Of a DNA stretch of 64,000 bases, positions 20,129-51,805 are shown one piece after another. Source of the DNA: Rhodocaloribacter litoris (GTDB taxonomy: Bacteria; Bacteroidota; Rhodothermia; Rhodothermales; ISCAR-4553). Position 1 is the first letter of the stretch, and every line of letters starts with the position of its first letter. Position numbers and translations under genes: made by a program. The notes under the pieces were generated by a model, which worked only from the letters and a program-made list of their open reading frames with translations, was not told the origin of the DNA and did not search any database. The stretch is from the NCBI RefSeq assembly GCF_011682235.2, contig NZ_CP076718.1, positions 803,758-867,757 on the forward strand, read 5' to 3'.

Positions 20129-20605
20129 TCAGCCGCCCGGTGCGGCCGTGAGTTGCCGGAGCGCCGCACAGGTGCGGGCGTAGAGCACCCGAAGGACGTC
20201 CAACTCGGCCGCCATGTCGAGCGTCTCACCGGCTCGAAGGCGTTTTTCCAGTTGCCGGCAATGCAGGCCCAGCGCAGTGGCGCCCATGTTGAGCCCGGCC
20301 CCCTTCAGGTTATGCACGGCTCCGGTGAGACCGGCCCGGTCGCCGGCGGCACAGGCCCGCTCGACCCGCTCGAAGAGCTCGGCGGCGTGCAGCAGAAACG
20401 CTTCGACCAGCTCGCCCAGAAAAACCCCCTGGCCTTCGTCGAGTTGCCGGAGCTCCTCGATCATTTCGGCCTGCAGGAGCGGGATGGCGGTGCCGTCGCC
20501 GCCGTCCGGCCGGTGCGTCGCGCCGGAGGCCGGCCGGGCGGCCTCCACCTGACGCTCGTGCGGGCGTTGCTGCACCCAGGCTGATTTCGCGGGAAGTGTA
20601 CTCAT
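20129..20605 (-). CDS. HPt (histidine phosphotransfer) domain protein
   Basis: 158 residues. The C-terminal 110 residues form a four-helix HPt domain with the phosphorylatable His98 in AVHNLKGAGLNMGA (consensus H-x-L-K-G-x-x-x-x-x-G). The first 40 residues are low complexity. HPt proteins relay phosphate between hybrid kinases and response regulators; no partner is adjacent, so its pathway is unknown. The ATG at 20605 is chosen as the first well-placed start; upstream ATGs at 20668 and 20629 would only add a disordered tail. Confidence 0.85.
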   Translation of the reverse strand: MSTLPAKSAWVQQRPHERQVEAARPASGATHRPDGGDGTAIPLLQAEMIEELRQLDEGQGVFLGELVEAFLLHAAELFERVERACAAGDRAGLTGAVHNLKGAGLNMGATALGLHCRQLEKRLRAGETLDMAAELDVLRVLYARTCAALRQLTAAPGG

Positions 20606-20691
20606 ACCGCCCCCGTGATTTTCTCGCATCCGTTCCGTCGATACCGGGATCTCCGGCACCGCTCTCATTATCGGGAACGGTTTTTCCGAAC

Positions 20692-22647
20692 TTAACCGGC
20701 CGTGCTGCCTATTTCCCGGTGCCTTGCCGCACCCGCCGCGACAGGCGGCTCTGCAGGCCGGCGATCCGGCTCGCCGGGTTCATACCGGAACAGCCGCATG
20801 AAGTCGGCACAGGCCTGCTCAACGACCCGCACCTCCTCCGGACGAAGCACGCCGGCGTAGGCGCCTACCCGGGCACGGGACACCTGCTTCCCGTAAAGCT
20901 CGGAGAACCGGGGATTCTGCGCCTTCCGTTCGAAGTCGACCGTTCCGGTATCGAGTCGTTCCCCATCGGGCAGCTTCAGTTCGAGGCCGGTAAATTCCTG
21001 TACCTCGTCGAGAATGCCCTCCGGGTTTTGTACCAGATCCTCGTACCGCACGAAGAGCATCCGGTCCCAGAACCGCTCCTCCTGAACGGTCCAGAGCGGC
21101 GCGTAAAACGCCATGAGGTACCGGCAGAGGGCGACGAGATCCCGGCCTCGCGTGGCCTGTGCCACGAAGTCGTTCCGCCCCTGCGCCAGCATCTTCTCCC
21201 CGACTTTCAGGAGCGAGGCGACCACGTCGCGCGGATCGCGTACCATGCAAATGAACCGCGCCGAGGGTAGTAGTTCGTACACCTCCGGGAAGGTTTTCGT
21301 CATCTTCGGATCCTTGAGCACGAGATGAGCCGATCCCCCGACGCGCGCCCGGGTTCGTTCGATAAACTGCTTTACGAGACCCGCATTATACCGGCGGAAA
21401 TCCTCCTCGCTGTCGAAAAATTGCGGCACCTGGTGCTGTATGCTGCCTTTTGCGAGGCGATAAGCCGCCATGAGGCACCGCAGGTAATGCGCCTCAGGCA
21501 GCTTTGGATTGCTCGTCGGGGCCTGACAGAGCAGGGTCTCCATAAGCGTCGTCCCGGAACGCGCCGCCCCCCCGACGAAGACGACCTCCTCTCCGACCGC
21601 CTCGTCCGGCGTCCCAACCTTGCGGGTACGCACAGCCATGGCACCCTGCTGGTCACCGGCCAGCATCGCCGCCCCGGTCTCCGAAAGCATGGCGACGAAT
21701 TCCGGGGGTAGTTCGTCCCGGTGGACCTTCAGGTAGTCCAGCACCTGGTGGGCCTCACCCGTTGCCGGGCAAAGGTCGGTCTCGATGAGCAGCCCGGCCA
21801 CGACCGCCGCTACCTGCCGCCCCAGACCGTAGCTCTGCTGCAGCACGTTGCCCCGGTTGAGGAGGATTCGAACCAGTTGCGCCCGGTTCAGCACACCGGC
21901 GTGCTCCAGGTAGAACCCCCCAACGACCATGGCAACCAGGTGCATGAGTGCTTTTTCCGAGCTAAAGTGCTGGCGGTACGAGAGCGAGCCGGCGTGAATG
22001 CGCCGCATATACCGTCCGGTCTCCGTTACATAAACCCGGCGATCGGGATAGCGGGCACAGAGCCTCACTATTAACATAAAGTCTTCAGCAAATTTGAAAA
22101 AAGGCTCTGGAAGGACAGACACTACATCGTCCCTGCGAAACACAGCACCAGCTCCGAAAACTTGCATCTCACCGGTTAAAATCATCCGCGTCAAGACTTC
22201 TATACCCTTTTTTCCATGTATGGACCTACGATTGTACTGTAGCCTCACGTCACTATCAATTATTGCATACATCTCTGGAACCATAACCATAACAGCATCT
22301 GATTTCGCATTCCATACATCTAGAGCCTCACACAAAAAGACATCTCTATCATCTAAGTAGTCATCATCATCTACACGCACAAAAAATGTGGTTTTCGCAT
22401 TTATTACTCCTGTCCCTAATGCAGCCGCCACACCTTGGTTATTATCGTGACGATGTATCTCAAAACCGTGTTTATTCGCAATAATATTTAGTTGTCCCGC
22501 GATTTCAGGAGACGATCCATCATCTACCAGAGTCAGGGAAACTTTATTCCAAAGACCAGCTTCAACATGTCGGGAAAAGTATTCAGGACGGTTAAAAGTC
22601 GGGATGACAACCGTCACATCGCGTGCGGGATCAAAGACTTCGTTCAT
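20692..22647 (-). CDS. Fused glycosyltransferase family 2 + sulfotransferase
   Basis: 651 residues with two enzymes in one chain. Residues 1-240 form a GT-A glycosyltransferase: VTVVIPTFNRPEY, LTLVDDGSS, the DxD-like VDDDDYLDD near 93-100. Residues about 350-610 form a PAPS-dependent sulfotransferase: 5'-phosphosulfate loop ARSGTTLME (362-370) and 3'-phosphate motif MVRDPRDVVASLL near 465. The middle (240-340) is helical. The base composition changes inside the gene: 22060-22640, coding for the glycosyltransferase, is about 37-40% G+C in places, while the sulfotransferase part is above 70%. Likely to decorate a surface glycan or the flagellin with a sulfated sugar (inference). Confidence 0.85.
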   Translation of the reverse strand: MNEVFDPARDVTVVIPTFNRPEYFSRHVEAGLWNKVSLTLVDDGSSPEIAGQLNIIANKHGFEIHRHDNNQGVAAALGTGVINAKTTFFVRVDDDDYLDDRDVFLCEALDVWNAKSDAVMVMVPEMYAIIDSDVRLQYNRRSIHGKKGIEVLTRMILTGEMQVFGAGAVFRRDDVVSVLPEPFFKFAEDFMLIVRLCARYPDRRVYVTETGRYMRRIHAGSLSYRQHFSSEKALMHLVAMVVGGFYLEHAGVLNRAQLVRILLNRGNVLQQSYGLGRQVAAVVAGLLIETDLCPATGEAHQVLDYLKVHRDELPPEFVAMLSETGAAMLAGDQQGAMAVRTRKVGTPDEAVGEEVVFVGGAARSGTTLMETLLCQAPTSNPKLPEAHYLRCLMAAYRLAKGSIQHQVPQFFDSEEDFRRYNAGLVKQFIERTRARVGGSAHLVLKDPKMTKTFPEVYELLPSARFICMVRDPRDVVASLLKVGEKMLAQGRNDFVAQATRGRDLVALCRYLMAFYAPLWTVQEERFWDRMLFVRYEDLVQNPEGILDEVQEFTGLELKLPDGERLDTGTVDFERKAQNPRFSELYGKQVSRARVGAYAGVLRPEEVRVVEQACADFMRLFRYEPGEPDRRPAEPPVAAGAARHREIGSTAG

Positions 22648-22682
22648 GTCAACTGGGGTCTGGGGGGTGCAGAAACGAGGAA

Positions 22683-24092
22683 TCAGGTGTGCCCGGCCAC
22701 CCGGATGGCAGGTCCGGCAGGGCGAGGGGTCAAAACACCGGGCGCACCGTTCGTGAGGCGTGCGAGTAGCGCCCGTATCCGCGCCACTTGTTTCTCGAGC
22801 GCGTAGTGTCCCTCAATGAAGGCCCGGTAGAGCCGGGAGTCGTACTCGTCGGAGGTAATCATCTCGACGGCCTCGTCGACGGTGTTGAAGAGCATCTCCT
22901 CGGCCCACGTCTCATAGGCAAAGGGGAAGTTGTGTACGACGGGCTTGATTCCCCGGGCCATGGCTTCGGCTATGGCATAGCCGAAACTCTCGTGGATGCT
23001 GGTTGAAAGAAAATAATCCTTGTCTTCGAGCCAGGAAGCTATGTCGTCCTGCCACCCGTCAAAATGTATGTTCCTTTCCAAACCCATTTCACGGATCATG
23101 TAGTGCATATACATTTCGAGAAGCGGATCCTGAAACGTTCCGGCAATGAAAAGTTGATAGCGCGGATCTCGCTGTACCAGGCGCTGCATAATCTGGAGCA
23201 TCATCATATGGTTCTTCGCAAGGCGAAGATACCCAACAGAGGCAATACGGTATCCGGTCGAGCGTTCCCGAAAAGCGTATCGTTCCAGATCGACACCGTT
23301 GCGTATCACGTCAACGATACATCCCTCCACCGCCAAAGAAACGGAGGCTTCTACAAGGCGCCGTACATAGTCTGCCACGAAAATCAGGGCATCAACGGTC
23401 TTCCAGTTCACCTGAGACGGATAGTCCGAGAACGCCTCGTAGCGATGTAGGCGGCAGATGATCTTTTTCTCACGGGCCAGCGGATGGCGGCTGGCGTAGA
23501 CGAGCGGGTCGTTGCACCACTCGAACCAGCAGACGTCCCCCCAACGCAGGGCTTCCTCGACACCGGAAGTGCTATTCACCACGAACTTGCGGACCTCGTA
23601 ATCCGCTACCAGTTCGCGGGGAATGTCGTCAAGAAACTGATCCAGGCCTTCGCGAACGATGAAAGCGAGCTTCACGGGAGAGACGGGGTCGGTGAAGCCG
23701 GCCTCACGCAGGCGTTCCCAGTAGGGTGCCAGCTGTTGGAGTTCGTTCTCGCCGGCCACCCGGCGCGCACGGGTATACAGCCGGGCTGCCCGCTCTTGAT
23801 GCCCCTGCTCCAGGTAAAGATTCCCGAGCATCAGGAGACAACCGAAGTGGTCGGGGTTACGCACGAGGGCAGCCGCCAGCGTCCGCTCGGCGCCGCGACG
23901 ATCCCCTTCGCCCAGATAGACCGCGGCCTCGACGGACGGCAGGTCTTCGTCATCGGGAAAGCGGGCGCGGTGCCGGGCGATAGCCTCCCGGGTTGCCCCG
24001 ACGTCACCGGCTTCCAGACGTTCGAAAATGGCCATGAGACCGGCTACCCGATCACGGTCGTGGATGGGGGCTCCCCCCTCTGTGGCGCTCAT
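22683..24092 (-). CDS. TPR-containing glycosyltransferase (GT4-like)
   Basis: 469 residues. Residues 15-130 are tetratricopeptide-like helices (FERLEAGDVGATREAIARHRARFP, LGNLYLEQGHQERAARLYTRARRV). The rest is a GT-B glycosyltransferase: acceptor-side half with WCNDPLVY and a nucleotide-sugar half with SVGYLRLAKNH, FIAGTFQDP and the conserved STSIHESFGYAIAEAMARGIKPV (EX7E motif). It is 35 bp upstream of the GT2-sulfotransferase on the same strand, so the two probably act in one glycan pathway. TPR-glycosyltransferases often act on proteins, including flagellins. The C-terminal half shows reduced GC. Confidence 0.85.
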   Translation of the reverse strand: MSATEGGAPIHDRDRVAGLMAIFERLEAGDVGATREAIARHRARFPDDEDLPSVEAAVYLGEGDRRGAERTLAAALVRNPDHFGCLLMLGNLYLEQGHQERAARLYTRARRVAGENELQQLAPYWERLREAGFTDPVSPVKLAFIVREGLDQFLDDIPRELVADYEVRKFVVNSTSGVEEALRWGDVCWFEWCNDPLVYASRHPLAREKKIICRLHRYEAFSDYPSQVNWKTVDALIFVADYVRRLVEASVSLAVEGCIVDVIRNGVDLERYAFRERSTGYRIASVGYLRLAKNHMMMLQIMQRLVQRDPRYQLFIAGTFQDPLLEMYMHYMIREMGLERNIHFDGWQDDIASWLEDKDYFLSTSIHESFGYAIAEAMARGIKPVVHNFPFAYETWAEEMLFNTVDEAVEMITSDEYDSRLYRAFIEGHYALEKQVARIRALLARLTNGAPGVLTPRPAGPAIRVAGHT

Positions 24093-24410: not shown

Positions 24411-25298
24411 TCAGGCAACCGGGTCTTCCTCGCCCACCGGCAGGCGGGGATCGTAGTTGAAGAAGGCCTTGAGGGCCTCGAAGAGCTCGGGGTGGCGATG
24501 GGCCATGGCGCGCGGCCGTTCGAAAAAGTTCTCGACCGCCACGGCGAAGAATTCGGCCGGGTTGGTGGCGGCGTAGCGGCGCAGCATCGACCGGCCCAGA
24601 CGGGCCTTGCGCATCTCGCGCCGGACGAGGCGGGCCCAGGCCGGTGCCGAAGCCGGATCCATGAGGGAAGGGACACCGTCGGCGAAGGCGTTGTCGAAGT
24701 CGAAAAGGTGGGCCAGTTCATGGAGGACGACGTTGTCGCCGTTGCCGGGATGTTCCCAGCCTTCCTCGACGGCTTTGACGGACAGGATGATGGGCCCCTG
24801 CGGGTGCACCATGCCGTCGTAGTCGGCCGCGTAGGTCTCGAAGTAGTCCTCGTCGAAGCGGTCCGGGTAGAAGAGGATGGTGCGGGTGGTGTTCAGCTCC
24901 CAGTCGGGGCGGCCATGGACGAGCAGGGCGGCCCCGGCCGCCACGGCCAGCCGGAGCGTATCCGTCAGTTCGACCCCCTCGACGGCCTCGAACGTCATCT
25001 CGTCCATGAAGAAGCGTACGTCGCGTTCGAAGCGGGCACGGGCCGTCTCGTCGAGATGGCGGTAGAGCGGGACGTGGCCGGCGAGCCACCGGCGCCAGGC
25101 TTCGGGCAGGGGCCGGCGGGCCACCCGCCACCGCCGGAAGGCACGGCGCAGGCCCCAGCCGTAGACCACCACCGGGGCCAGCAGGCCGAGCCAGGGCCCC
25201 AGCGGGGTGGCCTGCGCCCCGATGACCGCCAGCGCCACGCCGGTCAGCAGCGCAACGCTCGAGAGGAAAAAAAAGGTGGAACGACGGAGGATGCGCAT
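24411..25298 (-). CDS. MtfA-like zinc peptidase (M90 family) with N-terminal membrane helices
   Basis: 295 residues. Two hydrophobic segments (about 7-50) precede the M90 domain, which E. coli MtfA lacks. The catalytic zinc motif is VVLHELAHLFDF (HExxH) and the downstream Glu is in NPAEFFAVAVENFFERP, both at the spacing of MtfA. The domain also has YPDRF and the FYPD/DGMVHPQGPIILS stretch of the family. In E. coli, MtfA is an aminopeptidase that also titrates the glucose repressor Mlc. Membrane attachment suggests a different role here. The ATG at 25298 begins the first helix. Confidence 0.88.
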   Translation of the reverse strand: MRILRRSTFFFLSSVALLTGVALAVIGAQATPLGPWLGLLAPVVVYGWGLRRAFRRWRVARRPLPEAWRRWLAGHVPLYRHLDETARARFERDVRFFMDEMTFEAVEGVELTDTLRLAVAAGAALLVHGRPDWELNTTRTILFYPDRFDEDYFETYAADYDGMVHPQGPIILSVKAVEEGWEHPGNGDNVVLHELAHLFDFDNAFADGVPSLMDPASAPAWARLVRREMRKARLGRSMLRRYAATNPAEFFAVAVENFFERPRAMAHRHPELFEALKAFFNYDPRLPVGEEDPVA

Positions 25299-25567
25299 GC
25301 GGTCGCTTTGCGGTGTGGACGTACGGGCTCCGGCGTAACGTGCGCGGGCCGGGAGGTGCACAAGGCCGAAGGACGAGCGGTCGAACGCCCGGGGCACCCC
25401 CCACTTCCACCCGCCTACCCGGGGTCTTGATCGGCCGGACCGCAGGGAAGGTTCCGCCGCTCCGGCACGCGCCGTCGCTGGAAAATATGCCCGGGATTCA
25501 GGGAAAAATATGCCCCGGCGCCGCCCCGCCCCGGCACGGCACGGGGGCTTTTGCCCGCCGCATCGCC

Positions 25568-25584
25568 TTGGCAGATGGTTTGTA
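25568..25584 (+). promoter_or_regulatory. Weak sigma-54-like site before flgF
   Basis: TTGGCAGATGGTTTGTA: the -24 GG at 25570-25571 is followed by 10 bases and then GT (25582-25583) where GC is expected. TTGGCA and TTTG fit the consensus otherwise. It lies 33 bp before the flgF ATG. Confidence 0.35.
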
Positions 25585-25616
25585 GGCCCCTGCCGTGCCA
25601 CCAGACCGCACGAGCC

Positions 25617-26342
25617 ATGCTGCTACGACTTCGCAACAGCGTTGATGCCATGACCCGGATGATGCGCCAGCAAGAGCGCATCGCCAACAACCTGGCCAAC
25701 GCCAACACCGTCGGCTACAAGCAGGATCGGACGTTCACCGAGATCCTTAACGAGGAGATCAACGTGGAGGGGGCGCCGCAGAGCATCAAGCGCATGGAAC
25801 AATGGGCGGACCTCTCGGCGGGCGACCTGGAGCAGACCGGCAACCCGCTCGACGTGGCGATCGAGGGTGAGGGCTTCTTCGTGCTGACGGACGAAACCAC
25901 GGGAACGCCGCGCTACACACGGGCCGGGCGTTTCGTCCTCGATGCCGAGGGGACGCTGCGCGATGCGCAGGGACACCTCGTCGAGGGAGAAGCCGGACCG
26001 ATCCAGCTCCCCACCGCCGACGGCGGCCCGGTCGTGATCGACCGTGACGGGACCGTACGCGTCGACGGCAAAGAGGTGGGGCGCCTGCGCATCGTCACCT
26101 TCGACAACCCGGCCGCCCTCCGCCGCCTCGACGGCGCCGCCTTCGACGCCGGCGGCATGGAACCCGTCGACGTGGAGCATCCGAACCTGCACCAGGGCTA
26201 CCTCGAACAGAGCAACGTGGATCCGCTCCGCGCCCTGACGGAGATGATCGAACAGCACCGGCTCTTCGAGTCCCAGCAGCGCAGCCTCCGCACCGACGAC
26301 GAACTGCTCGGGCGGGTCACCCGTGAACTGGGCCGCTTCTAG
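25617..26342 (+). CDS. flgF: Flagellar proximal rod protein FlgF
   Basis: 241 residues. The N-terminal rod signature RIANNLANANTVGYKQD and the C-terminal region QGYLEQSNVDPLRALTEMIEQHRLFESQQR are the two helices that form the rod/hook D0 domain; between them is a short D1 insert with GNPLDVAIEGEGFFVL. FlgF sits at the distal end of the inner rod. Start ATG 25617 is set because family homology begins there. First gene of the flgF-G-A-H-I-J-N-K-L run; 36 bp from flgG. Confidence 0.92.
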   Translation: MLLRLRNSVDAMTRMMRQQERIANNLANANTVGYKQDRTFTEILNEEINVEGAPQSIKRMEQWADLSAGDLEQTGNPLDVAIEGEGFFVLTDETTGTPRYTRAGRFVLDAEGTLRDAQGHLVEGEAGPIQLPTADGGPVVIDRDGTVRVDGKEVGRLRIVTFDNPAALRRLDGAAFDAGGMEPVDVEHPNLHQGYLEQSNVDPLRALTEMIEQHRLFESQQRSLRTDDELLGRVTRELGRF

Positions 26343-26378: not shown

Positions 26379-27164
26379 ATGCTTCGTGCCATCCGCACCG
26401 CCGCCACCGGCATGAGCGCCCAGCAAGCGGGCGTCGACAACATCGCCAACAACCTGGCCAATGCCAACACCGTCGGCTACAAGCAGTCGAAAATCGTCTT
26501 TCATGACCTGCTATACCAGACCATCCAGGCCGGCAGCGAGGGAGAGGCCCAGGGCGTACAGCCGGCCACGATGCAGATGGGGCACGGCGCCACCGCCATC
26601 GCCACCGTGCGCAACTTCACCCAGGGCAGCCTCATCGAGACCGGCAACGCGCTGGACGTGGCCATCAACGGCGACGGCTTCCTGCAGGTGCGGCGCCCGG
26701 ACGGCACGGTGGCCTACACGCGCGACGGCACCCTGACCCGCAACGCCGAAGGCATGCTCGTGACCCAGTCGGGCCTGCCCCTCGAACCGGACATTGCCAT
26801 TCCGGAGAACACCGTCGAGATACACATCAGCCAGGACGGGCTCGTCTCGGTGCGCCTGCAGAACGAGCCCGACATGGTCGAGGTCGGCCAGCTCGAACTG
26901 GCCCGCTTCGTCAACCCGGCCGGGCTCAACCCGATCGGTGGTAACCTGTACGAACAGACACAGGCCAGCGGCGAACCGACCATCGGCACCCCCGGCCAGG
27001 ACGGGCTCGGCACCCTCATGCAGGGCTACCTGGAAGCCGCCAACGTGGATGTGGTACAGGAGATGGTCAACCTCATCACCGCCCAGCGGACGTACGAGCT
27101 CAACTCCAAGATGGTAACCACCGGCGAGGAGATGCTGCAGATCGCCAACAACATGAAGCGCTAG
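26379..27164 (+). CDS. flgG: Flagellar distal rod protein FlgG
   Basis: 261 residues, full length. N-terminal MLRAIRTAATGMSAQQAGVDNIANNLANANTVGYKQS and C-terminal GYLEAANVDVVQEMVNLITAQRTYELNSKMV are textbook FlgG. FlgG forms the distal rod that crosses the periplasm through the P and L rings, exported by the flagellar type III system without a cleaved signal. It is longer than FlgF in the D1 domain, as expected. Confidence 0.97.
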   Translation: MLRAIRTAATGMSAQQAGVDNIANNLANANTVGYKQSKIVFHDLLYQTIQAGSEGEAQGVQPATMQMGHGATAIATVRNFTQGSLIETGNALDVAINGDGFLQVRRPDGTVAYTRDGTLTRNAEGMLVTQSGLPLEPDIAIPENTVEIHISQDGLVSVRLQNEPDMVEVGQLELARFVNPAGLNPIGGNLYEQTQASGEPTIGTPGQDGLGTLMQGYLEAANVDVVQEMVNLITAQRTYELNSKMVTTGEEMLQIANNMKR

Positions 27165-27193
27165 GCCCCTCGCCGCGCCAGCCCATCGACGTG

Positions 27194-27916
27194 ATGTACG
27201 GGTTGTTTCTCACCATACTGTTGCTGCTCGGTCCGATGCCGGGGCAGGTCGCCGCCGGCGAACCGGATACGCTGCGCGAGCGCCTGCAGGCCGCCGCCGA
27301 GACCCTGCTGGCGGACCGCTTTCCCGAAGACGCTCCGCGCCTGCGCGTCCGCGTCCTGCGAACCGGCGGCGAGATCGACCCGGAAGCTGCCCTCCGGTTG
27401 CGGCTGCCTGCGGGCGACGGCCTGCCCCGCGCGCACATCCAGGTGGACGTGCTCGGCACCGAAAACGGGCAGGGCGGGCTTAAGACCGGCTGGGCGCTGC
27501 TCTACATAGCCCACTTCGACTCGGTCGTCGTGGCCCGCCACGACCTGGAGGCCGGCGCCCCGGTCACCCCCGGCGACGTGAGTACCGCATGGATGGAGGT
27601 GACCCGCTTCCGGGGCGAACCGCTCCGGGCCCGCGACTTCCGCGCCCTCGCCCGTGACGGGGCATTCGCCGCCCGGATGCTGCGCGCCGGCCGGGCGCTC
27701 CGGAAAGACGACCTCCGCCCGCCCCTGGCCGCCGACACCGGCGAGGCCGTGCTCATGCACTACCGCCGCGGGTCCATCTCCCTTCGCCTGACGTGCAAGG
27801 CCCGCGAACCCGGCCTCGTCGGCGACATCATCCGCCTCTACTTCCCCGACGCCGAGGTCACGTACCGGGCCCGGCTCACCGGTCCCGGTACGGCGGAGTG
27901 GATCGAAACCCTTTAA
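27194..27916 (+). CDS. flgA: Flagella basal-body P-ring assembly protein FlgA
   Basis: 240 residues. A Sec signal peptide (MYGLFLTILLLLGPMPGQVAA) is followed by an N-terminal domain and a C-terminal SAF-like/beta-clip domain with VVARHDLEAGAPVTPGDVSTAWMEV, RAGRALRKDDLRPPLAAD and DIIRLYFPDAEVTYRARL. FlgA is the periplasmic chaperone that lets FlgI polymerise into the P ring. GTG at 27191 is directly before the ATG at 27194; the ATG is used. The C-terminus reads ...VIRL where most FlgA have DxIxVxN. Confidence 0.85.
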   Translation: MYGLFLTILLLLGPMPGQVAAGEPDTLRERLQAAAETLLADRFPEDAPRLRVRVLRTGGEIDPEAALRLRLPAGDGLPRAHIQVDVLGTENGQGGLKTGWALLYIAHFDSVVVARHDLEAGAPVTPGDVSTAWMEVTRFRGEPLRARDFRALARDGAFAARMLRAGRALRKDDLRPPLAADTGEAVLMHYRRGSISLRLTCKAREPGLVGDIIRLYFPDAEVTYRARLTGPGTAEWIETL

Positions 27917-27928
27917 CGGAGTATCGCC

Positions 27929-28573
27929 ATGCCTGCCTTCTTCCATGCCCTGCACCGCACACCCCGGGCCGTTCTCCACGGAACCGGGCGGTCCCTGCTT
28001 TTGCTCGCCGCAATGGCCGCCCTGGCCTTCCCGGTCCATGCCCAGCACTCGATGTTTGCCGACTTCAAAGCGCGCGGTGCGGGCGACGTCATCACGATCA
28101 TCCTGGCCGAGCGGACGGCGGCCCAGCGCGAGAGCGGATGGGCCAACAAGGCGGACGCCCGGATCGGCGGTACGGCCAGCCTCTCCGCCGGCTCCGGCCT
28201 CTCCGGTGCCTTTGCTGCTGACGCCCGGTTCAACAAGAGCGCCCTCCACGAGAACGAGTCCGTGCAGAGCGACCTGCTCAGCGGCACGATGACCGCCACC
28301 ATCGTCCGCCGGGACGAGGCGGGCAACCTGCACGTGCAGGGAGAACGACGCCTGAGCGTCAACGGCGAGACGCACATCATGCGGGTCTCCGGCCTCGTGC
28401 GTCCCTACGACGTCCGGACCGACAACACCGTCCTCTCCTACCAGATCGCCAATGCGGCCATCGAATACCACCGGGAGGGCGGCATCACCCGGAGCCTCTT
28501 CAAACCCGGCCGGATGGTGCGCCTGGGACTGCTCGCCGTGCTGGCCGGTGCCGTCGTGTACGCAACCCAGTAG
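27929..28573 (+). CDS. flgH: Flagellar L-ring protein FlgH (non-lipoprotein form)
   Basis: 214 residues. FlgH forms the outer-membrane L ring. Family features: SMFADFKARGAGDVITIILAERTAA, SDLLSGTMTATIVRRDEAGNLHVQGERRLSVNGETHIMRVSGLVRPYDV. The N-terminus is a long Sec signal ending PVHAQ, cleaved by signal peptidase I by appearance; there is no lipobox Cys, whereas enteric FlgH is a lipoprotein. The C-terminus ends in a 17-residue hydrophobic stretch (VRLGLLAVLAGAVVYAT), which is unusual. CGGAG serves as ribosome site; 12 bp from flgA. Confidence 0.93.
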   Translation: MPAFFHALHRTPRAVLHGTGRSLLLLAAMAALAFPVHAQHSMFADFKARGAGDVITIILAERTAAQRESGWANKADARIGGTASLSAGSGLSGAFAADARFNKSALHENESVQSDLLSGTMTATIVRRDEAGNLHVQGERRLSVNGETHIMRVSGLVRPYDVRTDNTVLSYQIANAAIEYHREGGITRSLFKPGRMVRLGLLAVLAGAVVYATQ

Positions 28574-28647
28574 GTGATCCCGTTCGGGATGAGGCCGGTC
28601 CCCCCGTCCCACACCGCGTTTCCGCAACCCTCTTCGACACTGACCCC

Positions 28648-29781
28648 ATGCGCCTTCCCCTTCGCATCACGTTCCTGCTGCCGGTCGTCCTGGTCCTCGT
28701 GAGCGCCGCCGGTCCGGTTCAGGCCCAGGAACGCACCGCCTCCCGCCTGAAGGACCTCGTACAGATCGAGGGCGCCGTGCCGTTGCAGCTGACCGGCTAC
28801 GGCCTCGTCGTGGGCCTCGACGGCACGGGGGATCGCGTCCGGGGGCGCCGGGGCGCCCCGCATACCGTGCAGAGCATTGCCAACATGCTCCAGCACTTCG
28901 GCATCACGGTGGATCCGGCCCTGATCACCGCCCGGAACGCGGCCGCCGTCATGGTGACGGCAACGGTCGACCCGTTTGCGGCGGCCGGCAGCCGGCTCGA
29001 CGTGACGCTCTCCTCCCTGGGCGACGCCCGCTCCCTCTCCGGCGGCCTGCTCCTGCAGACGCCCCTGCTCGACCCCAACACGGGCACGGTCTACGCGATG
29101 GCGCAGGGACCGGTCTCGACCGGCGCGGTGCTGGCCTCCTCCTTCGGCTCGAGCGTCCAGGTCAACCACACGAACACCGGGCGCATCCCCGGCGGGGCCT
29201 TCCTCACGAAGACGCCCCCGTTCGACCTGAGCGCCGTCTCGGACCTGGGCCTCGTCCTGAAACGCCCCGACTTCACGAACGCCGTGCGGGTCGCCGAGGT
29301 CATCAATGCCCGCTTCCCCGGCGCCGCCGAGGTGGCCCACGCGGGCCTGGTCCGCGTGCGGGCCGGTACCCATCCGGACGGCATCCCGGGCCTCATGGCC
29401 GAGCTCGAAGCCATGAGGATCGATGTAGACCTGCCCGCCCGGATCGTGATCAACGAACGGACGGGCACCATCGTGGCCGGCGGCAACGTGCGCATCGGCG
29501 AGGTGATGGTGACCTACGGCAGCCTCGTCATCGCCACCCAGGCCGACCCGTTCGTTTCCCAGCCGCCGCCCTTCTCGCCCGGTGAGACCGTGACGGGAGC
29601 CGCCGGCACGGCCACCATCGAGCAGGAGGGCACCCGCTCGATCATCCTGCCGCCCAACACCGATGTGAACCAGCTCGCGGCTGCCCTCAACGACCTGGGG
29701 CTGACCGCCCGGGACATTATCGCCATCCTGCAGGCCATCGACCGCACCGGAGCCCTGCAAGGTGAACTCGTCATCCTCTGA
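28648..29781 (+). CDS. flgI: Flagellar P-ring protein FlgI
   Basis: 377 residues. A Sec signal peptide ends VQAQE. Diagnostic stretches are RLKDLVQIEG, LTGYGLVVGLDGTGD, SIANMLQHFGI, AAVMVTATVDPFA and the C-terminal AAALNDLGLTARDIIAILQAIDRTGALQGELVIL. FlgI builds the ring in the peptidoglycan layer that supports the distal rod. Its presence with FlgH confirms a two-membrane envelope. Ten bases separate it from the next gene. Confidence 0.97.
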   Translation: MRLPLRITFLLPVVLVLVSAAGPVQAQERTASRLKDLVQIEGAVPLQLTGYGLVVGLDGTGDRVRGRRGAPHTVQSIANMLQHFGITVDPALITARNAAAVMVTATVDPFAAAGSRLDVTLSSLGDARSLSGGLLLQTPLLDPNTGTVYAMAQGPVSTGAVLASSFGSSVQVNHTNTGRIPGGAFLTKTPPFDLSAVSDLGLVLKRPDFTNAVRVAEVINARFPGAAEVAHAGLVRVRAGTHPDGIPGLMAELEAMRIDVDLPARIVINERTGTIVAGGNVRIGEVMVTYGSLVIATQADPFVSQPPPFSPGETVTGAAGTATIEQEGTRSIILPPNTDVNQLAAALNDLGLTARDIIAILQAIDRTGALQGELVIL

Positions 29782-37386: not shown

Positions 37387-37812
37387 ATGACCGACATTCG
37401 CCGTCTTGTCGAACGCGTGGCGGCCGCCATGGGACCGGAGGCCCGCCCGGAGCAGGTGGAGGCCGTGGCCCAGGCCGTCCTGGACGAAGTGCTCGGCGAC
37501 CGGATACCCCCGTCCCCGCCCTACGACTCGCCCGAACCCGGCGAGCGGGCCATCCTGACCGCCTATGGTCTGGACCGCCCCGGTATCCTGGCCGCCATCA
37601 CGAACGTCGTCTCCGAGGCCGGGTGCAACATCCTCGACGTCTCGCAAAAGATCCTCCAGGGCTACTTCACGCTCATCATGCTGACCGACATCACCGACCT
37701 GAAAGGTACGCTGCGTGCCCTTCAGGACCGGTTGACCGAGGTCGGTCATCGGATGCAGGTGCGCGTCATCCTGCAACACGAGGATCTTTTCAACGCCATG
37801 CACCGGCCCTAG
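37387..37812 (+). CDS. ACT domain protein (UPF0237-like)
   Basis: 141 residues. A helical N-terminus (MTDIRRLVERVAAAMG) is followed by an ACT domain (about 55-135) with ILTAYGLDRPGILAAITNVVSEAGCNILDVSQKILQGYFTLIMLTDI. ACT domains bind amino acids. The UPF0237 ACT protein is very often encoded directly before a UPF0210 protein, as here (32 bp apart), which supports a joint role. The extra 50 N-terminal residues are longer than in the 90-residue version found in Streptococcus. The ATG at 37387 is preferred to the longer frame start at 37342, which would lack homology. Confidence 0.86.
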   Translation: MTDIRRLVERVAAAMGPEARPEQVEAVAQAVLDEVLGDRIPPSPPYDSPEPGERAILTAYGLDRPGILAAITNVVSEAGCNILDVSQKILQGYFTLIMLTDITDLKGTLRALQDRLTEVGHRMQVRVILQHEDLFNAMHRP

Positions 37813-37844
37813 CGCCGCCCCCCCCGCCCTTTGCTCTCGGCACC

Positions 37845-39227
37845 ATGCACTACGACATCCGCGAGGTCATCGACACGGTGCAGATGCTCGAAGTCGAGCA
37901 CTTCGACATCCGCACGATCACGCTCGGGATCTCACTGCGCGACTGCAGCAGCCGCCTGCCCCAGACGGTCCGGGCCCGCGTCTACGACAAGATACGGCGC
38001 ACGGCCGCCCATCACGTCCGTGTGACCGAGGAGATCGAATCGCTCTTCGGGGTGCGGATCACCAACAAGCGCATCGCCGTCACCCCCATCGCCCTGGTAG
38101 CCGACGGGGCCGGGCGCGACGTGTTCATCGACCTGGCCCGCGTGCTGGAAGCGGCTGCCGCCGACGTGGGCGTCGACTACATCGCCGGGTTTTCGGCCCT
38201 CGTCGAAAAGGGAATGACTGCCGGAGACCGGGCGCTCATCGACGCCCTGCCCGAGGCCCTGGCTGGAACGGAGCGGGTCTGCGGCTCGGTCAACTGCGGC
38301 TCGACGGCGGCCGGTATCAACGCCGATGCCGTGCTGGCGATGGCCCGGGCCGTGAAGGAGACGGCCCGCCTGACGGCAGACCGGAACTCCATCGGATGTG
38401 CTCGCCTCGTGGCCTTCTGCAACGCCGTCCAGGACAACCCCTTCGTGGCCGGCGCTTTCCACGGCCCGAGTGAGCCGGAGGCAACCATCAACGTGGGCAT
38501 CTCTGGGCCGGGCGTCATCCTGCGTGCCGTCAATGAGGTCGGTCCCGATGCCGACTTCGGTACGCTGGCCGACGCCATCAAGCGCACGGCATTCAAGATC
38601 ACCCGGGCGGGCGAGCTGATCGGCCACCGGTGTGCCGAACAACTCAGCCGGAAAACCGGCACCCCCATCTCGTTCGGCATCGTCGACATCTCCCTGGCGC
38701 CGACCCCGGCCGAAGGCGACTCGATCGCCGAGATCCTGACGGCCATGGGACTCGAAGACGTCGGCGCGCCCGGCACCACGGCGGCCCTGGCCCTCCTGAA
38801 CGAATCCGTCAAAAAGGGGGGGCTCATGGCGGCCCGGTACGTCGGCGGCCTCAGCGGGGCCTTCATCCCGGTGGCCGAAGACGAGGCCATGGTGCGGGCG
38901 GCCCTGCGAGGCCATATCAGCCTGGAAAAGCTCGAAGCCATGACCGCCATCTGCTCCGTCGGCCTCGACATGATCGCCCTGCCCGGCGACACGCCGGTGG
39001 AGACGATCGCCGGGATCATGCTCGACGAGTTCGCCATCGGCATGGTGAACAACAAGACCACCTCGTGCCGCCTCATCCCGGTCGCCGGCAAGCAGGTCGG
39101 GGACGTGGTGGACTACGGCGGGCTGCTGGGACGCGCGCCGATCATGCCCGTCTCGGCCCTCTCGAGCGTACCATTCGCCCGGCGGGGCGGTCGCCTCCCC
39201 GCCCCGATCCGCAGCCTGACGAACTGA
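37845..39227 (+). CDS. UPF0210 (PFL/DUF711) family protein
   Basis: 460 residues, the family's normal length (about 450). Characteristic are TVQMLEVEHFDIRTITLGISLRDC, VCGSVNCGSTAAGINADAV, GISGPGVILRAVNEVG, ISFGIVDISLAPTPAEGDSIAEIL and GMVNNKTTSCRLIPV. The family is related to formate C-acetyltransferase-like folds by structural comparison, but its reaction is not established. It is paired with the upstream ACT domain gene, suggesting amino-acid-responsive regulation (inference). No signal peptide. Confidence 0.93.
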   Translation: MHYDIREVIDTVQMLEVEHFDIRTITLGISLRDCSSRLPQTVRARVYDKIRRTAAHHVRVTEEIESLFGVRITNKRIAVTPIALVADGAGRDVFIDLARVLEAAAADVGVDYIAGFSALVEKGMTAGDRALIDALPEALAGTERVCGSVNCGSTAAGINADAVLAMARAVKETARLTADRNSIGCARLVAFCNAVQDNPFVAGAFHGPSEPEATINVGISGPGVILRAVNEVGPDADFGTLADAIKRTAFKITRAGELIGHRCAEQLSRKTGTPISFGIVDISLAPTPAEGDSIAEILTAMGLEDVGAPGTTAALALLNESVKKGGLMAARYVGGLSGAFIPVAEDEAMVRAALRGHISLEKLEAMTAICSVGLDMIALPGDTPVETIAGIMLDEFAIGMVNNKTTSCRLIPVAGKQVGDVVDYGGLLGRAPIMPVSALSSVPFARRGGRLPAPIRSLTN

Positions 39228-41685: not shown

Positions 41686-41746
41686 ACGAGGCAGCAACCG
41701 CCAGTTGCTTGCCAGTCCAGAACCGTTCACCAATCCCACGAGAACC

Positions 41747-42589
41747 ATGGGAGCTTTCGGAGACTTTTCCCGGATCAACACGAACATCCAGGCGCTCGAT
41801 GCGCTGCGTCGCTTCCAGCTCACCAACCAGAACCTGGGTGACCGCCAGCTGCGCCTGGCCACCGGCAAGCGGATCAACCGCGCCGAAGACGACTCGGCCG
41901 GCTTCCACATCGCAAAAAAGCTGGAAGCGCGCGTGCGCGGCCAGGCCCAGGCCCTCGCCAACATCGGCGACGCCAAGAGCATGCTGACGGTGGCCGAAGG
42001 CAGTCTGGGGACCATCATGGAGATCCTTCAGACGATGAAGGAGAAGGTCGTCCAGGCCGCCAACGACACGATGGGCACCGACGAGCGAACCGCCATCAAG
42101 AACCAGCTGGACGCCCTCTCGGCAGAAATCGATGAAATCGTCGGCGACACCACCTTCAACGGCACGTCGCTCTTTTCCGCAAGCGCACAGACGAGCTTCA
42201 CGTTCCAGGTCAATGCCGAGCAGGGCGACACGTTCTCGGTCACCCTCGCCACGTTGTCGGCCTCGAATCTCAGTGTGGCTATCGGCGATCTCACTGTCGC
42301 CAGTGCGGCAAGTGCCGGTGCCACCCTCGCTCGGATTGACACGGCCATCACCACGATCGCGAACGTGCTGGCCAACATCGGTGATAGCCAGAAGCGGCTG
42401 ACCTTCAAGCAGGACGCCCTCTCGACCGCCATCACGAACTACGAGGCCGCCCGCAGCCGCATCGAGGACGCCGACTTCGCCAAGGAGCAGATGGAGATCG
42501 TCAAGCTGCAGATCCTGCAGCAGACCGGGATCGCCTCGCTCGCACAGGCCAATTCCGGGCCGCAGGCCATCCTCCAGCTGCTCCAGTAA
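41747..42589 (+). CDS. Flagellin (copy 1)
   Basis: 280 residues, with only the conserved D0 and D1 parts, as in compact flagellins. N-terminus DFSRINTNIQALDALRRFQLTNQNLGDRQLRLATGKRINRAEDDSAGFHIAKKLEARVRG and C-terminus AARSRIEDADFAKEQMEIVKLQILQQTGIASLAQANSGPQAILQLLQ. No domain 2/3, so the filament surface is small. Most of the central and C-terminal coding sequence is base-for-base identical to copy 2 at 42806-43642. Unlike copy 2 it has no strong ribosome site, so it may be the minor filament subunit (inference). The ATG at 41747 is the family start. Confidence 0.95.
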   Translation: MGAFGDFSRINTNIQALDALRRFQLTNQNLGDRQLRLATGKRINRAEDDSAGFHIAKKLEARVRGQAQALANIGDAKSMLTVAEGSLGTIMEILQTMKEKVVQAANDTMGTDERTAIKNQLDALSAEIDEIVGDTTFNGTSLFSASAQTSFTFQVNAEQGDTFSVTLATLSASNLSVAIGDLTVASAASAGATLARIDTAITTIANVLANIGDSQKRLTFKQDALSTAITNYEAARSRIEDADFAKEQMEIVKLQILQQTGIASLAQANSGPQAILQLLQ

Positions 42590-42631
42590 CCGGCTCCGGC
42601 GCGGTTTCTGACCAAAATTTTCCGGAAAGCT

Positions 42632-42658
42632 TAAGAAAGCTTTTCATTCTGCCGAAAA
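42632..42658 (+). promoter_or_regulatory. Sigma-28-like promoter of the second flagellin gene
   Basis: TTAAG with TAAG at 42632-42635, 15 bases, then GCCGAAAA (42651-42658), which differs from GCCGATAA at one position. The flagellin ATG is 147 bases downstream, leaving a long untranslated leader. Confidence 0.65.
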
Positions 42659-42665
42659 AAGAGAC

Positions 42666-42745
42666 TGTGCTCGCCGGCATGTCTTCAGGCTGCCGGCAGG
42701 CACAAAAAAGAGGCGCGGAACCGTGCTGCCACACCGTCCCGCGCC
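42666..42745 (+). promoter_or_regulatory. Structured 5' leader of the second flagellin mRNA
   Basis: Hairpin 1: TGTGCTCGCCGGCA (42666-42679) pairs with TGCCGGCAGGCACA (42691-42704) over 14 positions with one mismatch and one G-U; it would begin at about +1 of the sigma-28 transcript. Hairpin 2: GGCGCGG (42712-42718) pairs with CCGCGCC (42739-42745), with an inner GTG/CAC. The ribosome site AAGGAGGAA follows in a single-stranded AT-rich part. A 5' stem-loop of this kind could stabilise an abundant mRNA (inference). Confidence 0.5.
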
Positions 42746-42805
42746 AGAGATCCCCCTCAGTGCCTGTTTGAAACCCTACACCAGACTACCCAAGGAGGAA
42801 ATATT

Positions 42806-43642
42806 ATGGCTTTTGGAGATCTGACCCGGATCAACACGAACATCCAGGCCATGGACTCGCTGCGTCAGTTTCAGCTGACGAACGAGCACCTGGGCCTGCG
42901 CCAGCTGCGCCTGGCTACGGGCAAGCGCATAAATCGTGCCGAAGACGACTCGGCCGGGTACAACATCGCCCGGAAACTGGAGGCCCGCATCCGCGGCCAG
43001 GCCCAGGCCCTCGCCAACATCGGCGACGCCAAGAGCATGCTGACGGTGGCCGAAGGCAGCCTGGGCAGCATCATGAATATCCTTCAGACGATGAAGGAAA
43101 AGACGGTCCAGGCCGCCAATGACTCGATGGGCACCGACGAGCGAACCGCCATCAAGAACCAGCTGGACGCCCTCTCGGCAGAAATCACCGACATCCTCGG
43201 CGACACCACCTTCAACGGCACGTCGCTCTTTTCCGCAAGCGCACAGACGAGCTTCACGTTCCAGGTCAATGCCGAGCAGGGCGACACGTTCTCGGTCACC
43301 CTCGCCACGTTGTCGGCCTCGAATCTCAGTGTGGGTAGCAGCGATCTCACTGTCGCCAGTGCGGCAAGTGCCGGTGCCACCCTCGCTCGGATTGACACGG
43401 CCATCACCACGATCGCGAACGTGCTGGCCAACATCGGTGATAGCCAGAAGCGGCTGACCTTCAAGCAGGACGCCCTCTCGACCGCCATCACGAACTACGA
43501 GTCGGCCCGCAGCCGCATCGAGGACGCCGACTTCGCCAAGGAGCAGATGGAGATCGTCAAGCTGCAGATCCTGCAGCAGACCGGGATCGCCTCGCTCGCG
43601 CAGGCCAACGCCGCGCCGCAGTCGGTGCTGTCGCTGTTCTAA
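42806..43642 (+). CDS. Flagellin (copy 2)
   Basis: 278 residues, again only D0/D1. Starts MAFGDLTRINTNIQAMDSLRQFQLTNEHLG and ends EIVKLQILQQTGIASLAQANAAPQSVLSLF. The ribosome site AAGGAGGAAATATT just before the ATG is the strongest in the window, so this is likely the main filament protein. Its N-terminal third differs from copy 1 at synonymous positions, while 43196-43610 is almost identical in DNA. The codons in the shared segment (AGT, ACT, GCT, GTC mixed) are more T-rich than in neighbouring genes. A sigma-28-like promoter and a structured leader precede it. Confidence 0.96.
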   Translation: MAFGDLTRINTNIQAMDSLRQFQLTNEHLGLRQLRLATGKRINRAEDDSAGYNIARKLEARIRGQAQALANIGDAKSMLTVAEGSLGSIMNILQTMKEKTVQAANDSMGTDERTAIKNQLDALSAEITDILGDTTFNGTSLFSASAQTSFTFQVNAEQGDTFSVTLATLSASNLSVGSSDLTVASAASAGATLARIDTAITTIANVLANIGDSQKRLTFKQDALSTAITNYESARSRIEDADFAKEQMEIVKLQILQQTGIASLAQANAAPQSVLSLF

Positions 43643-43814: not shown

Positions 43815-44996
43815 TCAGGCGGCCCCGCGTCGCTCCGCATAGACGATGCCCAGCTTCAGGGAAGCGATCAGGGCCTTGATGGCCTTCGCTCCGTATTCTT
43901 TCTTTTCCCGCAGCGCCTGGAAGGCCCGTGCATGGTCCCCCAGGCCGCTCCGGGCACACAGCACCCCCAGGATGCGCAGCAACTCGTCCGGGTTCAACAC
44001 GAAGCGTACGGCGGTTCCGGCGGCCTCGTTCAGGTTATAGGCTTCGAGCAGCATCAGCATGCCGTCGCCGGGTTTTTGTGCAGCCAGCAACGCCAGCCCG
44101 GTGGTGTAGTAGGCGATCGGCTCCCGGCGGTCGAGTGTGAGCATCTCGTTGGCATGCACCAGAGCCGCCGGGATGTTGTTCAGCTTGAGGGCGGCCTGGG
44201 CCGCCAGGAGATGGGTGTAAAAGGCATTCTGAGGCAATAGCAGGCGGTAATCCAGCTCTCCGGTGATGTCGACGACATCCTGGTATTGCTTGAGAATGAA
44301 ATAGGCCACGGCAAGCTGGTAGCCGTAGTAAGCCCGATATTTTGCCGAGCGCGGCCGCGTGTACTCCGCCTTGAGTAGTTCGATCCGCGGCGTATACTTC
44401 TGCACCATTCCTTCCGCCGAAAGGGCATAGCCGGTGTGGATGATTTCGGCCTCGACGCGGACGAGCTTCCGGCCGGTGCGCTCCATGTAGGCGAGGAGCT
44501 TCTCCTGTACCTGATGGTGCACGCGCCCTTCGTAGCGGATCTGTGGGTCGTTGCGGAAGATGCGCTCCTGCCACACCCGGTCGGCCGCCATGATCTGCCC
44601 CTCGGGCAGCAGGTTACGCACCAGCAGTTGTGCCGCGGCAACCTCCGGATGGCGGATGATTTTTCGTATACGCTGCCAGTGACGATCGTCCGGCAGGTAC
44701 TCGTCGCCGTCGAGGACCAGGATGAAGTCCCCGCCGGCCTTGTCGAAGGTATAGTTGCGGGCGACGGCGAAGGAACCGGGCCATTCGATCTCCTCGAAAA
44801 CGTCTGCATAGCGCCGGGCGATCTCCTGCGTTCCGTCGGTCGAGCCGGTGTCGATGACCACGATCTCGTCCACATGAGGCCGGGCGAGGGAGAGACACCG
44901 CTCCAGGTTCTCCGCCTCGTTCTTGACCATCATACTGAGGGAAAGGGACGGCTCTCGTTTGCGCCTGCGGGCGATCTTTCTTGCTGCTCGGGCCAT
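43815..44996 (-). CDS. Glycosyltransferase family 2 with TPR-like C-terminus; candidate flagellin glycosyltransferase
   Basis: 393 residues. The GT-A domain (15-230) has LSLSMMVKNEAENLERCLSLARPHVDEIVVIDTGSTDGTQEIARRYADVF, the metal site FILVLDGDEYL and RNYTFDKAGGDF, as in the SunS-like/TPR family of peptide and protein glycosyltransferases. The C-terminal 160 residues are TPR-like helices (AYYGYQLAVAYFILKQYQDVVDI, AAQAALKLNNIPAALVHANEML). It starts next to fliS and ends against the flagellins. Position and architecture suggest O-glycosylation of flagellin Ser/Thr; this is inference. Confidence 0.82.
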   Translation of the reverse strand: MARAARKIARRRKREPSLSLSMMVKNEAENLERCLSLARPHVDEIVVIDTGSTDGTQEIARRYADVFEEIEWPGSFAVARNYTFDKAGGDFILVLDGDEYLPDDRHWQRIRKIIRHPEVAAAQLLVRNLLPEGQIMAADRVWQERIFRNDPQIRYEGRVHHQVQEKLLAYMERTGRKLVRVEAEIIHTGYALSAEGMVQKYTPRIELLKAEYTRPRSAKYRAYYGYQLAVAYFILKQYQDVVDITGELDYRLLLPQNAFYTHLLAAQAALKLNNIPAALVHANEMLTLDRREPIAYYTTGLALLAAQKPGDGMLMLLEAYNLNEAAGTAVRFVLNPDELLRILGVLCARSGLGDHARAFQALREKKEYGAKAIKALIASLKLGIVYAERRGAA

Positions 44997-49667: not shown

Positions 49668-50423
49668 TCACGCACTTCCCGGACGAAGCCCGGACCGGTT
49701 GCCTTCCGTTCCAGGACCGGCAAGCGGCAGCGTCAGCACGAAGCAGATGCCGGACTCGGCACCGTTGGCAGCCAGCTCCAGCCGTCCCCCGTGCGCTTCG
49801 GCGATCCGGCGCCCGATGCAAAGCCCGACCCCCAGGTTGTGTGCCTTGGTCGTGAAAAAGGGCATGAACACCTTGCTTTCGGCTTCCTCTTCGTCGATCC
49901 GGCCGTCATTGTGGACCTCGAACCGGATCACCTCGTTCGGCGGGTCCGGTATGACCCGAAAGCGCACGTCGCCGCCGCTGCGGGTGGCATCGAGGGCGTT
50001 CTGGAGCAACACGAGCAGGGCCTGGCGCAACAGAACGGGATCGGCCATGAAGAACAGGTGGCCGTGCGGTGGCACCTCGAAGCGAATCCGTTCCAGATCG
50101 GCCTCGTCGACGGCCGCGAGCAGGTTCTCCAGCACGTCACGCAACCCCACGCGGGAGAACACGGGTTCGACCGGCTCGCTGTAACGCTGCAAGTCGGCCA
50201 GGATCCGTTCGATCCGGACGGTGCTCTCGAGGATACGGAACGCCAGATCGCGCTGCTCGCGGGTGGGCAGCGAATCGATCAGCAGGTCGGTATAGCCTTC
50301 GATGCCGGCGACCAGGCCCCGCAGGCGATGGGCCAGCACGAGCGCCAGGTGACCCAGCGAGGCCTCCTCGTCGACGCGGTGCACCGGCCGGGATACCCCC
50401 GCCCGGTCGAACCGCTCGGGCAT
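49668..50423 (-). CDS. Sensor histidine kinase, cytosolic, with an altered H-box
   Basis: 251 residues. It has no membrane segment and almost no sensor domain. HisKA: LALVLAHRLRGLVAGIEGYTDLL, where the phosphorylated His is followed by Arg rather than the usual Glu/Asp, and the NPL triad is replaced by GLV. ATP-binding domain: N box LLVLLQNALDAT, G1 VHNDGRID, F box FMPFFTTK, G2 NLGVGLCIGRRIAEAHGG. It is 118 bp upstream of the regulator on the same strand. The start is uncertain: GTG at 50498 would add 25 residues. Similar to FlgS in layout; sensing a flagellar export state is conceivable. Confidence 0.82.
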   Translation of the reverse strand: MPERFDRAGVSRPVHRVDEEASLGHLALVLAHRLRGLVAGIEGYTDLLIDSLPTREQRDLAFRILESTVRIERILADLQRYSEPVEPVFSRVGLRDVLENLLAAVDEADLERIRFEVPPHGHLFFMADPVLLRQALLVLLQNALDATRSGGDVRFRVIPDPPNEVIRFEVHNDGRIDEEEAESKVFMPFFTTKAHNLGVGLCIGRRIAEAHGGRLELAANGAESGICFVLTLPLAGPGTEGNRSGLRPGSA

Positions 50424-51204: not shown

Positions 51205-51240
51205 TCCCCCATCACACGACCGTCGTAACCTGCTCCCGTC

Positions 51241-51741: not shown

Positions 51742-51805
51742 CCCCGGCCCACCCGAGGCAACGCGTACGCGCCGCAACCCCTTTCGCCCCAGCCGTGCAC
51801 CACGT

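Follow-up and report, generated by a model that had tools for sequence, protein, structure and literature searches.

Two kinds of described systems come closest to the locus analyzed here. FlmG of Caulobacter crescentus binds flagellins through its TPR part, and a GT-B-like domain of the protein O-glycosylates them (PMC7591256). In Enterobacteriaceae and Geobacillus, flagellin glycosylation islands carry glycosyltransferase genes within flagellar loci, have a G+C content below that of the genome and are patchily present (PMC4875605, PMC5109656). The same islands encode decorating enzymes, and some of their glycosyltransferases contain methyltransferase domains (PMC4875605, PMC5109656).

A comparable locus is present in Rhodocaloribacter litoris, whose genome consists of one contig of 4.50 Mb. 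A stretch of 64,000 nucleotides of this contig was analyzed (the window), in which the following features surround a fused glycosyltransferase-sulfotransferase gene:

20129..20668 (-): protein with an Hpt domain, encoded downstream of the fusion (Pfam)
20692..22647 (-): GT2-sulfotransferase fusion gene, 651 amino acids (open frame, Pfam)
22683..24092 (-): TPR-GT4 glycosyltransferase, partner conserved near flagellar genes (Pfam, order search)
24411..25601 (-): M90 peptidase homologue, start probably later (Pfam)
25551..26342 (+): flgF-type rod gene, start probably 25617 (Pfam)
26379..29781 (+): flgG-type rod gene, flgA, flgH, flgI (Pfam)
41705..43642 (+): two flagellins, 41705-42589 and 42806-43642, likely glycan acceptors (Pfam)
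43815..44996 (-): further GT2 beside the flagellins (Pfam)

The fusion gene follows the TPR-GT4 gene on the same strand, and the flgF-flgG-flgA-flgH-flgI run is divergent and lies beyond the GT4 and M90 genes; which rod gene is flgF and which is flgG we presume from gene order. The flagellins, the further GT2 and FliD are located at 41.7-47.3 kb of the window. The second halves of the tandem flagellins are nearly identical.

The likeness of the 22683-24092 product to FlmG rests on layout, namely a TPR N-terminus, a GT4-type C-terminal domain and a position near flagellar genes, whereas FlmG is described without a fused GT2 or sulfotransferase. With the islands the locus shares glycosyltransferase genes among flagellar genes and co-occurring with them, and patchy content. 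As to base composition, low G+C is seen in one 600-bp stretch and as a mild dip in part of the neighboring gene, and the rest of the fusion gene has 63-66% G+C against a mean of 66.9%. It differs from them in position, as the window genes lie near flgF and the known islands between flagellin and neighboring fli/fla genes, and in the predicted decoration, which here is sulfate; the main text of both island reports contains no word starting with 'sulf' (PMC4875605, PMC5109656). Overall, the locus has the look of a site of flagellar glycosylation genes that undergoes recombination.

We tentatively propose that the fusion protein is a two-step decorating enzyme of this locus, which extends a glycan on flagellin and then sulfates it, and give this proposal close to an even chance. 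The TPR-GT4 protein would add the first sugar, probably after recognizing flagellin via its TPR repeats, the GT2 module would extend the glycan, and the fused PAPS-dependent sulfotransferase would sulfate it in the cytoplasm, before export. The sulfotransferase may have been joined later to the C-terminus of an order-level GT module, perhaps from outside the order, and the AT-rich 620 bp may have been imported by recombination, as part of an AT-rich piece of DNA that encoded the GT-A core of a gene from the same family. If this is true, a strongly charged substituent would be added to the known set on bacterial flagellin glycans, and sugar addition and sulfation would be combined in a one-protein system. 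Haloarchaeal archaella carry sulfated N-glycans. They share with the proposed system a swimming filament with sulfated glycans, but these are N-linked and the filament is unrelated, and a bacterial cytoplasmic route is suggested here. Among the open-licence papers listed by literature searches, none described sulfate on a flagellin glycan of bacteria, and no paper on GT-sulfotransferase fusions or on Rhodothermales flagellar glycosyltransferases was found.

Domain architecture of the fusion protein

The gene is a single ATG-started frame without internal stop. Its product harbors a GT2 domain at residues 12-173 (PF00535, 2.9e-12, 47.3 bits versus a cut-off of 23.3) and a Sulfotransfer_3 domain at residues 356-557 (PF13469, 5.2e-29, 102.5 bits versus a cut-off of 27). 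A reading made earlier from the sequence only had placed a glycosyltransferase and a sulfotransferase in one frame, which the open frame and the two Pfam domains bear out; the gene is a true GT2-sulfotransferase fusion. It is composed of four parts:

22027..22647 (-): GT-A catalytic core, residues 1-207, AT-rich (43.5% G+C, GC3 0.37) (composition, invariant columns, predicted fold)
21658..22026 (-): helical C-terminal part of the GT module, residues 208-330, GC3 about 0.8, homologous in relatives (composition, alignment, predicted fold)
21583..21657 (-): linker between GT module and sulfotransferase, residues 331-355 (Pfam, match limits, composition)
20788..21582 (-): sulfotransferase domain, residues 356-620 (Pfam, invariant residues, fold)

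Besides its score above the curated cut-off, the GT2 domain contains the Asp-rich D94-D95-D96, a motif that is metal-binding in GT2 enzymes. D43, D94-D96, D189 and R215 are invariant in alignment A1 with six relatives. According to the AlphaFold model (pLDDT 89.8), the last strand of the module spans residues 212-217 and helices reach from 230 to 330. The nearest solved folds are the GT-A enzymes TarP, AvpGT, WrtF and Leptospira 6p61, with 12-21% identity; full-length superpositions give 7-10 Å rmsd and the core-only match to 6p61 about 3.5 Å. The sulfotransferase domain likewise combines a score above the cut-off with conserved RSGTT (363-367) and RDPR (470-473), which we take to be PAPS-binding motifs, and further contains E385, K445 and YED (535-537). 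Invariant in the sulfotransferase alignment A3 are R363, S364, G365, E385, K445, R470, D471, R473 and Y535-D537. The model of this half is of moderate quality (pLDDT 74.7). An APS kinase, an enzyme that contributes to PAPS supply, is encoded in the genome. We also considered whether the linker might be left over from a TPR and rejected this, because in four comparisons the score was equalled by 4, 28, 202 and 136 of 500 shuffles.

The best Foldseek matches of the sulfotransferase half are TPST2 and TPST1 (TM, normalized to the target, 0.61-0.72), and a profile search of the family against TPST1 gave 1.6e-32 with RSGTT and the E and K positions aligned. These similarities would suit an enzyme that acts on protein and sulfates tyrosines of flagellin or of another protein. 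However, TPST is the best solved match for the whole family profile, so the window protein is not singled out by it, and unlike TPST1 and TPST2 this protein is bacterial and fused to a GT2. The fused glycosyltransferase argues for a sugar as the acceptor. In addition, the two flagellins contain just 1 and 2 tyrosines but 50 and 53 serines plus threonines, which makes sulfate more likely to be placed on an O-glycan than on tyrosine. Sulfation of protein is therefore regarded as very improbable.

Base composition of the fusion gene

The region 22051-22650 has a G+C content of 43.3%, which corresponds to a z of -4.8 relative to the mean of 15,054 overlapping 600-bp windows taken from 464 kb of the R. 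litoris genome. Only 0.18% of these windows are equally AT-rich or more so, and the 464 kb contain seven other stretches below 50% G+C, two of which fall below 22051-22650. The base counts reported in the sequence-only reading (24 of 60 G+C in 22321-22380, 22 of 60 in 22441-22500 and 44 of 60 in 20701-20760) are exact. At third codon positions the G+C content (GC3) is 0.33 for residues 1-100 and 0.41 for residues 101-200, whereas the same amino acids encoded as in nine flagellar genes of this stretch would give 0.88. In 50-codon windows across residues 26-150 it is 0.26-0.34. The difference from the expected value indicates that the shift is synonymous. The remainder of the gene, with a GC3 of 0.76-0.79, is also under this expectation.

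The best single change point of GC3 is located after residue 207 (support 187-218), with a 2dlnL of 98.7 compared to 29-35 if it is put at residues 330-355, and its statistic was reached by none of 200 permutations. It coincides with the end of the GT-A core in the predicted fold and is separated from the sulfotransferase start by about 140-170 codons. Matches to the GT module extend to residues 320-330 where the relative is complete, and in blastp to 339 (G102) and 350 (G029); the sulfotransferase profile begins at 356. As homology and helices continue to about residue 330, the break parts the GT-A core from the helical tail and does not mark the fusion joint. The composition break is thus inside the GT module, and not nearly at the domain boundary as had been thought.

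The break had further been explained as the scar left when a foreign glycosyltransferase was joined to a resident sulfotransferase. An AT-rich GT-A core and a remainder nearer to the host, if still under the expected GC3, are in agreement with this explanation. However, the position of the break within the GT module is not, and the GC-rich helical tail belongs to the same GT family as the core.

A three-segment fit yields GC3 values of 0.32, 0.47 and 0.77, so the transition is partly graded. This gradation would suit an AT-rich stretch that reflects relaxed or local selection on codon use without any import, as would the GC3 of the GT4 gene, which is lowered by more than 0.10 in 9 of 13 genomes (see below). 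General relaxation should, however, lower the whole gene, while residues 26-150 are far under the rest of it, and the failure of all permutations to reach the change-point statistic also speaks against this explanation, which we judge improbable. Import of the AT-rich segment is preferred, and the description of the fusion gene as a recombination-like composition mosaic is supported. Since trees of the core and of the helical tail show no supported conflict, we infer recombination from composition only. The neighboring gene 22683-24092 had been described as partly AT-rich as well. It does show a milder dip (GC3 0.56-0.60 at residues 226-375), but a single change point is not significant (59 of 200 permutations).

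Distribution of the glycosyltransferases in the order

A search of 114 genomes of the order Rhodothermales with the full-length query gave matches in nine, one of them R. litoris itself; the other eight match only within residues 8-330. All nine are FlgI-positive, as are 36 of the 114 genomes (hypergeometric 1.5e-5, not corrected for kinship). The GT2 gene is situated near flgF/flgG in five of them, the window, G009, G021, G027 and G030. No flagellar gene was found in the 19.9 kb around the fused GT gene of G029 and G103, whose flgI is about 340 kb away and on another contig, respectively, and the GT2 contigs of G001 and G102 are too short to judge the flagellar neighborhood. Relatives of both GT2 and TPR-GT4 form one protein in G029, G102 and G103. 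The AT-rich part (residues 9-207) clusters with the copies from other genomes of the order, closest to that of the one further genome belonging to its family (45-46% identity; support only 74/84). As judged from this distribution, the GT module is probably an older, order-level resident of the flagellar locus. In genus g4 one of seven FlgI-positive genomes (G027) has the GT2, as part of an AT-rich five-gene insert between GT4 and M90 that is missing in G037 and G051. The insert (L015:8607-12903) encodes a methyltransferase, the GT2, a HAD-like, an ATP-grasp-like and one more protein, HAD and ATP-grasp being named by eye.

In a phylum sample of 394 genomes, four matched the full query, all from the order; at most three candidates per genome were scored among the matches listed, and weaker sulfotransferase matches could be missed. 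No second copy of the GT2-sulfotransferase fusion was found in the 114 genomes of the order and this phylum sample. A fused protein of uniform G+C in sister genomes, which would have spoken against the origin proposed in the sequence-only reading, was thus not encountered, although the GT module of G001, the sole same-family genome, is cut by the contig end, and a fused copy is possible there. An alignment scan returned 49 loci, of which only L046 and L047, by length the contigs of G001 and G030 (3666 and 19767 bases), are family members by identity and coverage; the other 47, which match at 22-38% identity and in most cases along a portion of the core, were not used. No relative was detected in viral contigs, none in a single-protein search of genome contigs, and no donor of the AT-rich segment was found.

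Relatives of the TPR-GT4 partner (E<=1e-40) are present in 18 of the 114 genomes including R. litoris, all of them FlgI-positive (hypergeometric 2.3e-11, not corrected for kinship). Thirteen of these genomes, belonging to six families, have TPR-GT4 together with flgF or flgG in one fetched stretch: G000 (R. litoris), G002, G003, G008, G017, G021, G027, G030, G037, G043, G044, G051 and G091, the last with TPR-GT4 on the far side of flgL. The gene is at a contig end in G009 and G057, and the stretches of G029, G102 and G103 do not show this arrangement. The M90 gene lies between the GT genes and flgF also in G027, G037, G044 and G051.

Origin of the sulfotransferase half

At E<=1e-5, relatives of the sulfotransferase half (residues 340-651) are present in 18 other Rhodothermales genomes, with 23-37% identity and a best E of 2.5e-10; its own genome has no second match. 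The family profile finds four further sulfotransferase stretches there, the best with 20% identity and 50 bits in pairwise blastp. Three of the four are located in an AT-rich region at 1.037-1.045 Mb. The stretch L102 that contains three sulfotransferase matches (G000:C1:1030001-1050000) has 58% G+C and is perhaps a surface polysaccharide cluster. In the phylum of a Sphingomonas locus, 3 of 398 genomes match the sulfotransferase half at E<=1e-12, with a best E of 2.8e-23; by pairwise blastp the best of these scores 105 bits at 28% identity versus 73 bits at 27% for the best of the order. Plasmids contain a single weak sulfotransferase match (26%). As the pairwise gap is modest, it gives no more than a hint of an origin outside the order.

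The sulfotransferase is probably the less resident half, a newcomer that was joined to the GT module, as its sequence relatives suggest. The earlier assignment of a foreign glycosyltransferase and a resident sulfotransferase is therefore unsupported and probably reversed, given that the GT family occurs in 9 of 114 genomes and that the sulfotransferase kin in genome and order are distant. Although GT2 genes of this family do move, as the insert of G027 demonstrates, we consider that assignment improbable.

Among the relatives found, the one closest to the sulfotransferase half is situated in a polysaccharide-like cluster with GT61, DegT aminotransferase, FdtA and an ABC-2 transporter. Together with the location of three of the four other sulfotransferases of R. 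litoris in the AT-rich region and of the GT protein of G029 and G103 away from flagellar genes, this would be consistent with a fusion protein that decorates another surface polymer (capsule, O-chain or exopolysaccharide), the flagellar site being a tolerated insertion place. Against this, all genomes found with either GT gene are FlgI-positive (9 of 9 and 18 of 18), and the flgF/flgG site recurs in six families. Decoration of another polymer is accordingly thought unlikely, and the locus evidence favors the flagellum over other surface polymers. A sulfated flagellar glycan, as predicted from the genes, appears to be a sound idea.

Sulfotransferases and composition switches at related loci

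Sulfotransferases accompany the GT genes in three other genomes. In G001 a Sulfotransfer_3 protein (3.5e-12) is encoded directly upstream of GT2; the contig, 3.7 kb long, has no flagellar genes. G030 harbors a GT4-TPR-GT2-TPR-Sulfotransfer_1 protein of 1390 amino acids (5e-9; L019:10217-14389) that adjoins the GT2/GT4 pair near flgF. In G044 a TPR-Sulfotransfer_3 protein (4.5e-8; L145:5751-6953) is located between M90 and GT4 near flgF, and over its first 113 residues it shares 57% identity with the TPR of the TPR-GT4 protein of its genus-mate G027. The window sulfotransferase matches those of G001 and G044 with E 0.003-0.02 and the G030 protein with E 0.009, outside the sulfotransferase domain of the latter; the remaining comparisons gave E 0.03 (G044 with G001), 0.9 (G044 with G030) and 9 (G001 with G030). 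The mutual dissimilarity of the four sulfotransferases indicates that sulfation has not been conserved by descent. A sulfotransferase profile scan of 18 loci detected G000, G044 and, weakly, G001, but missed G030, which Pfam detects; in this non-exhaustive scan, 14 of the 18 TPR-GT4 genomes had no sulfotransferase in the stretches covered. Two further stretches, L151 and L152, contained none.

Intragenic AT-rich switches recur at this type of locus. In 9 of 13 genomes GT4 has a GC3 lower than that of flgG/flgI by more than 0.10, and GT2 is AT-rich relative to flgG/flgI in two of five (G000, G027); G001, G029, G057, G102 and G103 were excluded from this comparison, as was the G009 copy of GT4, located on a different contig. 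Permutations were run for 15 genes. Strong switches occur in two relatives. That of G027 follows residue 243 and lies within the GT4 part, away from the end of the TPR; in the TPR-GT4-methyltransferase gene of G091 (L148:8275-10902) GC3 falls sharply from 0.85 to 0.42 after residue 117, the end of the TPR part. Thus, the switches of G091 and the window lie at a module boundary, but this does not hold for all. Weaker switches at residues 239 (G003) and 225 (G017), each with 0 of 200 permutations, probably share their history with that of G027. Permutation counts of at least 50 of 200, i.e. no switch, were obtained for G037, G051, the GT4 of G044, G002, G043, G030 and the window GT4. Switches in G008 (residue 68, before the homologous part) and G021 (residue 27, near the edge) were not counted.

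These observations invite a wider proposal, possible but clearly more doubtful than that for the fusion protein itself. Rhodothermales flagella might carry sulfated glycans, with sulfotransferases recruited several times separately, by fusion to a chain-extending GT2 in the window and behind a flagellar-type TPR in G044. The locus would keep its docking parts and swap catalytic parts within genes, leaving composition switches behind; it also offers a testable case of catalytic-part exchange inside genes.

Change points were calculated in the window for the fusion gene and 25 other frames, the neighboring GT4 and 24 more. Two frames with large values were set aside. In 37623-39227 the switch is at residue 60 and the Pfam match starts at residue 87, and the start is probably over-extended; 49791-51809 has no Pfam match, and a rod-type flagellar gene and a kinase are located there in other frames.
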